The notes under the pieces are model-generated. The model was not told the origin of the DNA and searched no databases. It worked only from the letters and a program-made list of their open reading frames with translations. From assembly GCA_003278095.1 (NCBI GenBank), contig QCHB01000001.1, positions 194,001-258,000 on the forward strand: 64,000 bases of DNA, given 5' to 3'. This document shows, piece after piece, positions 60,916-63,136 of this stretch. Position 1 is the stretch's first letter; every line of letters starts with the position of its first letter. Source of the DNA: SAR116 cluster bacterium AG-390-L20 (GTDB lineage: Bacteria > Pseudomonadota > Alphaproteobacteria > Puniceispirillales > Marisalimonadaceae). A program made the translations under genes and the position numbers.

Positions 60916-61443
60916 TTAAATGTTTGATTTACATTTAAATATATCTGCAGTTACACTAGACAAAAGATTGGTCTCTTTAATTAAAGTATTTATAACATCA
61001 TCGCTATTTTTTTTTGCTGTTCTTTGGTTAGTATAAGTAACTTCTTTGTTTTCATTTAAATCTTGAATACCGATAGCATTACCACCCATTGTTTGAGCTC
61101 TTTTTTTAAGCTCATACATTAATTCATCATAGCTTAAACTTCCTACAACTTTTACTCTTATAATATCGACACAGTCAGCATTTCCCTTTAAAAATTTAGT
61201 TGATGAAAAATCAATATCTTTAAAATGATCTGTATAAGGTTTTTTTACCTTTGAAGGTGTTGTGTTAGGCTTAACTAAACTAGTTAATTTTTGGTCTGAG
61301 ATAGTTTCTGTAGTTCCTACGGTAGTTTGCTTTTGATCTGGGTTCAATACTATGCTTTGGCCATATCTTGATATATATGACGAACCTTGATGACAACTAG
61401 ACAAAAAAACTAGCAAGAATGTAACTAAAACTATTTTTACCAT
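60916..61443 (-). CDS. Lipoprotein of unknown function, RcsF/DUF4156-like C-terminus
   Basis: 175 residues from the ATG at 61441-61443; a TTG four codons earlier is less likely. A lipobox, VFLSSC (Cys17), follows the hydrophobic signal, so the mature protein would be anchored to a membrane. The C-terminal half has DCVDIIRVKVVGSLSYDELM and a KKRAQTMGGNAIGIQDLN stretch. This pattern (Cys, Gly near a beta turn, GGNAI) recalls small lipoprotein domains such as RcsF and DUF4156; only a resemblance. Residues 30-75 are low in complexity with Thr and Lys. Confidence 0.75.
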   Translation of the reverse strand: MVKIVLVTFLLVFLSSCHQGSSYISRYGQSIVLNPDQKQTTVGTTETISDQKLTSLVKPNTTPSKVKKPYTDHFKDIDFSSTKFLKGNADCVDIIRVKVVGSLSYDELMYELKKRAQTMGGNAIGIQDLNENKEVTYTNQRTAKKNSDDVINTLIKETNLLSSVTADIFKCKSNI

Positions 61444-61529
61444 TATAAATCTCAAATCTTATTACAATATAGTACGTCACTTATATGAATATATTTAATT
61501 TCATGATTTAAATATATTTATCTACAAAA

Positions 61530-61874
61530 TCAATTTTTACATTTGAAATTATTGATAAAAAACTTTCCTAAAACTTTGTTAGCTTCAACGCTCATTAGTT
61601 CAGCGTTATCTATTATAAAACTAAGAATAGATAGTCTGATTTTTTTAATGGACAAATTTTGTGGTACGCAGATATTAGTCGTTTTCTCGTCTATACTAAA
61701 AATCACATCGTTAACAGCAATTATATAGCCGTCACATATACCTTGTTCGTATAAATTATTACTTTTACAGTATGATAGGAATTGTGCCGCCGTGAAAAAA
61801 AGATTATTCGATGCTGCATAAGTTTTATTCATAATAGTTATACTTAGTAATGTGAAAATTAAAAATTTTACCAT
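61530..61874 (-). CDS. Rap1a/Tai-like small secreted protein
   Basis: 114 residues with a signal peptide (about 1-20, ending KTYA). The mature protein has the pattern I associate with the Rap1a/Tai domain: a Cys in FLSYCKSNN, then GICDGYIIAVNDVIF, an ICVPQNLSIKKIRLSILSFI core with its Cys, an ANKVLGKFF helix and a final Cys in NNFKC. The four mature Cys (36, 47, 69, 112) fit two disulfides. Named members are immunity proteins against type VI amidase effectors; most of the family is uncharacterised. The start overlaps the adhesin gene by seven bases, implying coupled translation. No amidase effector lies adjacent. Confidence 0.7.
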   Translation of the reverse strand: MVKFLIFTLLSITIMNKTYAASNNLFFTAAQFLSYCKSNNLYEQGICDGYIIAVNDVIFSIDEKTTNICVPQNLSIKKIRLSILSFIIDNAELMSVEANKVLGKFFINNFKCKN

Positions 61875-63136
61875 GACATCCCCAAAGAAAACTTACCCAT
61901 ATTATAATCTCCTGAAACTGAGCTACCAAATGAAAAGTCTAGTGGCAGGTGCAATCCATCATAAATTCCTACAAAATTTAATCCAAAAGCAATTTCATTA
62001 TTTGTAGATGCGCTACTTAAATTTAAAGAATGTTTATTTCCATATAGTGGTAAGCGTGTATCCAAAGTAGTTGCCATAAGGCTAACTTGATCAGCATATT
62101 TTCTTGTAGCTGCATGATTAGCCTCGTTTGGCTCTTGTATGATTAAATCTCCTATAACTGTAGTACTATCAGTAGCATTTTTCCCGATTTGTATATTACC
62201 AGTCGAAGAAGCCATTATATCTTTCCCATAAGTAGAGGAATCGTAAAAGAGCATGGAATTACTTCCAATATGGACTATATCATTTGCGGTATCCTTGTAT
62301 AAAAATGTGTCTCCACTACTATCAATTAAAGTGTTTGCTTTTATTGTGTTTGCCGTAATAGTTCCATTAGCTGTAATATTTCTAAAACCAGAAATATCAG
62401 AATTACTATCCACAACAACAGCTTTGTTGGCACTTACAGTTCCTGCGGTTACATCATCAAGTGTTTCTAATTCACTTTCTGATATATTTGCATTACCAAT
62501 AATAAAAGAACCACTGGCAGTAATGTTACCTGAACTGGTTATATTACTTGAACTTATTGTTCCTAAACCTGAAACGTTTCCATTGGTGTCAAAGGTATAG
62601 TTACTACTTGAAAATGTACCTGTTATTGCTAAATTGTCATTTATAGTCACCGTATTATTAGAAAAGTCACCATGTATTAATGGACTATTGTCAGCGATAT
62701 TAGAGATGAAAAGTTGATTAGATACACTTCCTGATGTAGGTCCTGCCTCATATCCAATAAATATATTGCCAGACCCATCGACATTTGTTGATCCAGACTT
62801 GTAACCAATTGCAGTATTTTTGTCCCCGCTTGTTAAGGCGACTAAGCTATCTGATCCAATTGCAGTATTATAATCTCCGGTATGTATAAGTTTGCCTGAC
62901 TCATACCCAACGACTGTATTTGCATTTCCTTCTGTCAAATCCATTCCAACTGCATGATAACCATAAGCTGTATTAAAATCTCCTGACGTTATATCTGGAA
63001 ATACTGCACCACCACCGGCACCACTGTCAGATCCACAATTATCTGTATTAGTACATGATGCATTTGCTGAAAAATCACTTATTAAACTCATACTTAAACA
63101 TATTATAATAAATATTTTTATAAAAATTAAAGCCAT
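61868..63136 (-). CDS. Trimeric autotransporter-like surface protein with phage-fibre-like stalk
   Basis: 422 residues. Signal peptide about 1-26 (ending SANAS). Residues about 53-135 hold five YadA-head-like repeats of the NTAIGY or NTVVGY form (NTAYGYHAVG, NTVVGYESG, NTAIGSDSL, NTAIGYKSG, NIFIGYEAG). Residues 170-335 form a Ser/Thr/Asn-rich stalk with TLDDVTAGTVSANKAVVVDS and GFRNITANGTITA, forms I recall from marine phage tail fibres. HAATRKYADQ at 341-350 is also phage-fibre-like. The last 70 residues look like a small beta-barrel anchor ending in SLGMSW. Likely a trimeric surface adhesin. Confidence 0.75.
   Translation of the reverse strand: MALIFIKIFIIICLSMSLISDFSANASCTNTDNCGSDSGAGGGAVFPDITSGDFNTAYGYHAVGMDLTEGNANTVVGYESGKLIHTGDYNTAIGSDSLVALTSGDKNTAIGYKSGSTNVDGSGNIFIGYEAGPTSGSVSNQLFISNIADNSPLIHGDFSNNTVTINDNLAITGTFSSSNYTFDTNGNVSGLGTISSSNITSSGNITASGSFIIGNANISESELETLDDVTAGTVSANKAVVVDSNSDISGFRNITANGTITANTIKANTLIDSSGDTFLYKDTANDIVHIGSNSMLFYDSSTYGKDIMASSTGNIQIGKNATDSTTVIGDLIIQEPNEANHAATRKYADQVSLMATTLDTRLPLYGNKHSLNLSSASTNNEIAFGLNFVGIYDGLHLPLDFSFGSSVSGDYNMGKFSLGMSW

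Follow-up and report, generated by a model that had tools for sequence, protein, structure and literature searches.

The closest described counterparts of the gene pair reported here are adhesins encoded together with a small accessory protein. In Salmonella, a trimeric autotransporter, SadA, is reported to be linked to a small gene that aids its surface display; the product of this gene, the inner-membrane lipoprotein SadB, has been likened to MATH domains, and a single deletion is described that removes sadB along with sadA (PMC3953254). In Acinetobacter sp. Tol 5, the adhesin AtaA is described as co-transcribed with a periplasmic protein, TpgA, whose absence lowers the surface level of the adhesin (PMC8151025, PMC13082670). 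Also related is the Rap1a/Tai family of immunity proteins of the type VI secretion system (T6SS), namesake of Pfam PF18602: the Serratia report presents Rap1a-type proteins that block T6SS amidases and portrays these immunity proteins as small helical dimers with disulfides, which bind their partner (PMC3852654). Here we describe a locus in a 64,000-nucleotide stretch of the SAR116 cluster bacterium AG-390-L20 (contig QCHB01000001.1, positions 194,001 to 258,000; hereafter the window), in which a gene for a trimeric-autotransporter-like adhesin overlaps a gene for a small secreted Rap1a-like protein. Judging from sequence comparison, the adhesin is probably a type Vc trimeric autotransporter that has a periplasmic helper of its own, a member of the Rap1a family.

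Both genes lie on the reverse strand of the window, as do all of its features given below. The adhesin gene is an open reading frame (ORF) of 422 amino acids (aa) at 61868..63136, and the Rap1a-like protein (114 aa, with a signal peptide recognized by eye) is encoded by 61530..61874. An earlier note on this DNA had claimed a seven-base overlap between the two, and both ORFs were recovered where it had placed them, with 61868-61874 common to both. The shared ATGGTAA (61868..61874) joins the Trp codon and stop of the adhesin to the start of the Rap1a-like gene and does not vary among the 12 family loci read. The adhesin terminus, TCATGGTAA, is likewise invariant and contains the Rap1a start in all 12 loci read (ten from the window's own genus and two, G043 and G044, from a sister genus). 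A conserved ribosome-binding site inside the end of the adhesin gene was considered and rejected: the Gly codon is GGG in just 5 of the 12 loci, and we therefore make no such claim. Against the Rap1a model of Pfam the small protein scores 39.7 bits, above the cut-off of 27.7, over model positions 1-90 of 90 (domain 61539-61793), so that the Rap1a/Tai similarity which the note had put forward for a profile search was borne out. It is the sole Rap1a match in the window's genome. All four of its cysteines are kept in 11 of 11 close relatives, and again in 11 of 11 proteins of a wider set that spans both groups of the tree described below. Run against PDB sequences, the Rap1a profile returned a single, chance-like match (E 0.95). 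In genome G013 (L009:1403-1743) the Rap1a frame is broken and the adhesin frame still open, which could be a real change or a sequencing error.

Recurrence of the pair in related genomes had been set as a test of this linkage, and it was found in 10 of 40 genomes of the window's own genus (g1), in two other genomes of its family (f1), in seven of genus g12 (family f3) and in one member of the Rhodobacteraceae. Order-wide, Rap1a is present in 45 of 136 genomes and the adhesin anchor in 19, and the anchor has an adjoining Rap1a gene in 19 of these 19; the survey gave 49 Rap1a matches in all, part of which were read as loci. Three arrangements of the pair occur. The 12 pairs of family f1 share strand and 7-base-pair (bp) overlap. 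In the seven g12 pairs, adhesin and Rap1a run towards each other, their stops 6-11 bp apart, and the gene behind Rap1a is glucose-6-phosphate-isomerase-like; this name, like that of the alcohol-dehydrogenase-like neighbor mentioned further on, is presumptive. The window anchor is 48-49% identical to the g12 anchors. Tracing of a g12 adhesin to its own anchor on one contig succeeded in G098 and G102 only, the other contigs ending inside repeats, and these two whole adhesins are far longer (1184 and 785 aa). On one g12 contig (G101:C25; L108 and L112), the segment with the adhesin end, Rap1a and the gene that follows is present in two inverted copies close to the two contig ends, a duplication that is probably an assembly artefact. 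Within the window's own genus, full-length adhesin and Rap1a occur in the same ten genomes, the window's included; one more genome, G014, carries an N-terminal piece of the adhesin at a locus that breaks off shortly afterwards, as though the contig ended there.

The third arrangement comes from a single-cell Rhodobacteraceae contig (L037, 34% identity) that was returned by an adhesin scan alone, one of whose two search patterns was the GKDIMASS stretch that precedes the neck in both the L037 and the window adhesin. The L037 adhesin (613 aa) passes the Pfam YadA anchor model PF03895 with 27.1 bits against 22.7. Directly 3' of it lies a Rap1a gene (PF18602, 52.6 bits), the junction TAATG sharing one base. 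Because L037 was picked by its adhesin alone, this Rap1a neighbor amounts to an independent test. In all, 12 named loci hold a related adhesin: four are assigned to the SAR116 cluster, seven are labelled Alphaproteobacteria or Proteobacteria (single cells and metagenome-assembled genomes), and one is the Rhodobacteraceae contig; on the basis of these labels we refer to the order as SAR116-like. Since the pair recurs in distant relatives, the data suggest a small protein that helps the fibre and not an antidote; the earlier proposal that the small protein serves the adhesin gains support from this recurring linkage. We infer the helper role, as well as trimer formation, location and binding.

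The Rap1a proteins themselves divide along the same line. In a tree of the order's proteins without L037, 18 adhesin-linked sequences split from 18 others with support 99/90; once L037 is included and two rows of poor quality are taken out, 19 adhesin-linked sequences split from 16 others with support 100/99. The input was 45 loci yielding 42 ORFs (none from L025, L038 or L042); the first tree omits five duplicates and L053, the second omits L058 and L061 as well, and the broken G013 copy is in neither. In these trees the adhesin-linked proteins form a distinct group, which we call a split and not a clade because the branches are long and the tree is unrooted.

The family name invites a different explanation, namely that the protein is an orphan Tai/Rap1a immunity protein that neutralizes peptidoglycan amidases injected by neighbors, its place beside an adhesin being incidental. 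Orphan immunity genes exist, and the Pfam match gives this idea a footing. The Serratia relatives, which are alike in being small secreted proteins of the disulfide type, block T6SS amidases (PMC3852654, excerpt). That same text describes one disulfide, whereas the window protein has four cysteines, an adhesin as partner and its own tree group. The T6SS sheath protein VipB was found in 0 of the 136 order genomes, many of them incomplete, in a search that recovered the E. coli positive control. As the note had stated, no amidase or T6SS gene was recognized among the neighbors when seven proteins of the region were passed through Pfam. The linkage to a T6SS and an amidase effector that characterizes Rap1a/Tai immunity genes was not found, amidase families not having been searched genome-wide, and injection by other species is conceivable. 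Given the absence of VipB, a T6SS antidote role is unlikely, and T6SS immunity was not our first choice as the main role. The three adhesin-linked arrangements and the separate Rap1a group would be unexpected of an orphan, and we regard the orphan explanation as very unlikely. Anti-phage defence was also considered and set aside, with no PADLOC match for six proteins. A literature search by Rap1a/Tai family names returned no match, and the retrieved records and excerpts hold no work tying trimeric autotransporters to this family, the one co-mention concerning the host RAS-family Rap1a; those on SAR116 and trimeric autotransporters hold only a marine-phage co-mention.

The adhesin begins with a signal-peptide-like N-terminus (aa 1-26, 63059..63136), recognized by eye and present in 11 aligned rows. 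There follow a head with five NTAxG-like motifs at aa 55, 73, 90, 107 and 124 (62711..62992), a repetitive stalk (62165..62710) that ends in the pre-neck GKDIMASS stretch, and a trimeric-type neck (EP..NHAATRKYAD, 62084..62164); repeated head, stalk and neck of this kind are features of trimeric autotransporters. The head matches phrog_6002 (8e-10) and phrog_23837 (5e-9), both families of structural proteins of phage virions, head and stalk together resemble phage virion and tail-spike families, and in a profile search the neck matches a trimeric phage hyaluronidase with E of about 5e-4 for the whole sequence and 0.004 for the stretch. Matches to head and stalk stretches came from 29 phage records, with at most 34% of the query covered among the ten matches listed. 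What sets the adhesin apart from these phage proteins is an N-terminus resembling a signal peptide and an anchor of the outer-membrane type. A phage origin for the entire protein was rejected: scanning viral contigs with the anchor yielded no relative, and phage genes were not recognized near the locus. The description of the adhesin as chimeric is upheld in this form: a head like phage structural proteins, a neck like trimeric phage hyaluronidase and, by profile comparison, a YadA-like anchor. For the YadA-type head claimed in the note, the five motifs speak in favor, and the Pfam YadA head models gave no match. No Pfam model matched the 422-aa protein above its cut-off, YadA head and anchor included (E up to 1), and a PDB sequence search with the whole adhesin gave weak matches only (E 0.04). 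Similar head repeats occur in a tail-fibre-like protein of 581 aa at another locus (L022; G039:C11:5506-5889), in a setting that looks foreign by eye.

The anchor (61871..62083) consists, by eye, of a short helix and about four strands, with hydrophobic alternation at about four places and Trp as its last residue. The terminal Trp is found in 14 of 14 aligned anchors, an aromatic end being expected of type Vc proteins. For comparison we collected PF03895 matches from 8 of 190 other alphaproteobacterial genomes and aligned seven of these anchors. The profile of the window's anchor family scores 19.65 against them, as against a mean of 10.2 (standard deviation 2.2, maximum 18.3) for shuffled profiles, none of 200 of which reach the observed score. 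With the neck removed, the barrel scores 19.93, and adding the L037 anchor to the profile raises the score to 25.33; 0 of 200 shuffles are as high in either case. We read the window anchor as a divergent member of the YadA anchor family, a reading aided by L037. A wider anchor search of 385 genomes of the class and 398 of the phylum returned the window's own genome only, with a model that may miss L037-like anchors; as the anchor of L037 is of another kind, the result sets no bound on the spread of the pair.

Taken together, these features allow a working model to be proposed. Three adhesin chains would be exported by Sec, with the C-terminal barrel inserting into the outer membrane and the YadA-like head displayed on the stalk. 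The Rap1a-like protein would be translated from the overlapping start and so be made together with the adhesin. Export to the periplasm would follow, with folding by way of disulfides. At that site the protein would most likely bind the adhesin chains, at the stalk or the anchor, and might keep these repetitive chains separate, or hold them in register, before assembly, or steady the anchor later. The small lipoprotein encoded next to the pair may act from the membrane side.

On our best reading, the Rap1a-like helper would be analogous to SadB or TpgA and belong to another protein family. The locus resembles SadBA in that a small gene is linked to a trimeric autotransporter, and a lipoprotein is encoded next to the adhesin here too; SadB, as described, is itself the lipoprotein, whereas the Rap1a partner has no lipobox by eye (PMC3953254). 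The present lipoprotein is set apart from SadB by description, being DUF4156-like at best. TpgA is described as interacting with peptidoglycan, and the comparison with it is again one of descriptions: no such Pfam domain is found here (PMC8151025). Instead of a helper in export, the Rap1a-like protein could be a lasting structural or surface partner on the anchor or fibre, for instance an anchor stabilizer like TpgA. The same adhesin-Rap1a linkage would be expected in that case, and TpgA, a periplasmic protein, is reported to interact with its adhesin at the outer membrane (PMC8151025, excerpt). We think this rather unlikely, Pfam finding no peptidoglycan-binding domain in the Rap1a-like proteins. 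If one Rap1a group indeed serves trimeric autotransporters, a new class of export helper would stand beside SadB and TpgA and the family name would mislead. Automatic annotation applies the name 'Rap1a/Tai family immunity protein', as in three plasmid records. It is a doubtful extension that the original and commoner job of the Rap1a fold is that of a periplasmic partner of surface and envelope proteins, one of its groups being dedicated to trimeric autotransporters and the T6SS antidotes a later recruitment of this binding fold. The pair offers a direct, testable candidate from marine bacteria.

Several observations weigh against a dedicated helper of a type Vc adhesin. Among the 45 Rap1a-bearing genomes of the order, 26 are without this anchor, and 18 of 21 anchor-less Rap1a loci examined, from other f3 and f4 genera, adjoin the alcohol-dehydrogenase-like gene instead (L038-L044, L049, L053, L055, L056 and L059-L065). 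Outside the order, the pair is known from one genome (L037). Nine PF03895 matches in the eight other alphaproteobacterial genomes have no Rap1a within up to 1.5 kb, some of these loci being cut by contig ends, and a Rap1a partner is therefore not general among autotransporters; one of the nine, L120, looks by eye like a porin of what we take to be the FadL type. As for the anchor, PF03895 fails on the window sequence (E up to 1), hhalign's own probability for the YadA-anchor comparison is 11%, and the L037 barrel by itself is not above shuffles (15 of 200 as high). Synteny alone could account for much of the conservation inside the family, and the joint absence of the two genes in g1 corresponds to a single change on the tree of rsmJ, the upstream gene. 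Finally, the neighboring lipoprotein is kept in f1 genomes without the pair, so that it is not strictly tied to it, and among the g12 genomes it has no match in G096 and only a weak match elsewhere (34 bits) in G097.

The genes flanking the pair bear on the notion that these are unrelated ancestral neighbors, kept together in slowly rearranging genomes. The upstream gene (PF04445, presumably RsmJ) is present in 28 of 40 genomes of the genus, 11 with the adhesin or its start and 17 without. In 16 of the 17 pair-less loci, rsmJ is followed after 87-115 bp by the lipoprotein gene, the 17th stopping at a contig end; as rsmJ runs straight to the lipoprotein there, adhesin and Rap1a are absent as a unit. 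Multiple joint losses within the genus were considered and rejected, the rsmJ tree (27 rows; G010 and G018 omitted as incomplete) needing one change, and because of this the joint absence is weaker evidence than it appears. Conservation of rsmJ and the lipoprotein gene alongside the pair in g1, and the single change, are both as mere synteny would have it. In g12, however, the pair lies elsewhere, in opposite orientation and beside the isomerase-like gene, and the Rhodobacteraceae pair has a different overlap; we hold synteny alone to be highly improbable. The adhesin, Rap1a and lipoprotein genes are all under purifying selection. The median ratio of nonsynonymous to synonymous substitution rates (dN/dS), counted with a simple Nei-Gojobori script, is 0.12 for the adhesin (16 of 45 pairs usable), 0.07 for its anchor (30 of 45), 0.10 for Rap1a (13 of 45) and 0.09 for the lipoprotein (24 of 45).

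The small lipoprotein, third gene of the cluster (60916..61443), has the lipobox LSSC, assigned by eye. The DUF4156 model of Pfam matches 4 of 9 of its relatives weakly (best E 0.008) and does not match the window protein. The lipoprotein adjoins the adhesin in both arrangements found in the order. A homologue lies directly upstream of the g12 adhesin start (blastp E 8e-6 to 1e-9, six sequences searched), and it stands beside that start in 6 of 6 readable g12 loci (G098, G099, G101, G102, G103 and G105). Beyond family f1, g12 genomes were the only ones matched by the lipoprotein profile, in whose construction g12 rows had been used. Another weak match to the lipoprotein (25 bits), at G000:C7:97077-97406, is interrupted by in-frame stops and is perhaps a decayed paralogue.

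A few features lie around the pair and its relatives. In L037, a secreted-looking protein of 145 aa (L037:6339-6776), with no Pfam or PADLOC match, is encoded 32 bp after Rap1a and is a possible further partner. A plasmid search with the L037 Rap1a returned three distant genes annotated Rap1a/Tai, that with the L037 anchor gave no match, and a scan of viral contigs with the L037 Rap1a found no relative. On a Comamonas plasmid (L166, NZ_CP101745), the gene annotated Rap1a/Tai comes after an Abi-family gene and a hypothetical one, and the 6.3 kb read there contain no T6SS gene, which makes this a further setting of Rap1a that lacks a T6SS. In the window, a weak AT-rich hairpin (61480..61528) lies 3' of the Rap1a gene, a 106-base stretch folding with -9.6 kcal/mol in a calculation made with no control, and possibly marks the end of a two-gene unit. 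In G011, G044 and G043, an opposite-strand gene, which by eye we take to be glutaredoxin-like, is located between Rap1a and the lipoprotein (L003:1766-2131, L023:1109-1489 and L024:1109-1489, respectively).
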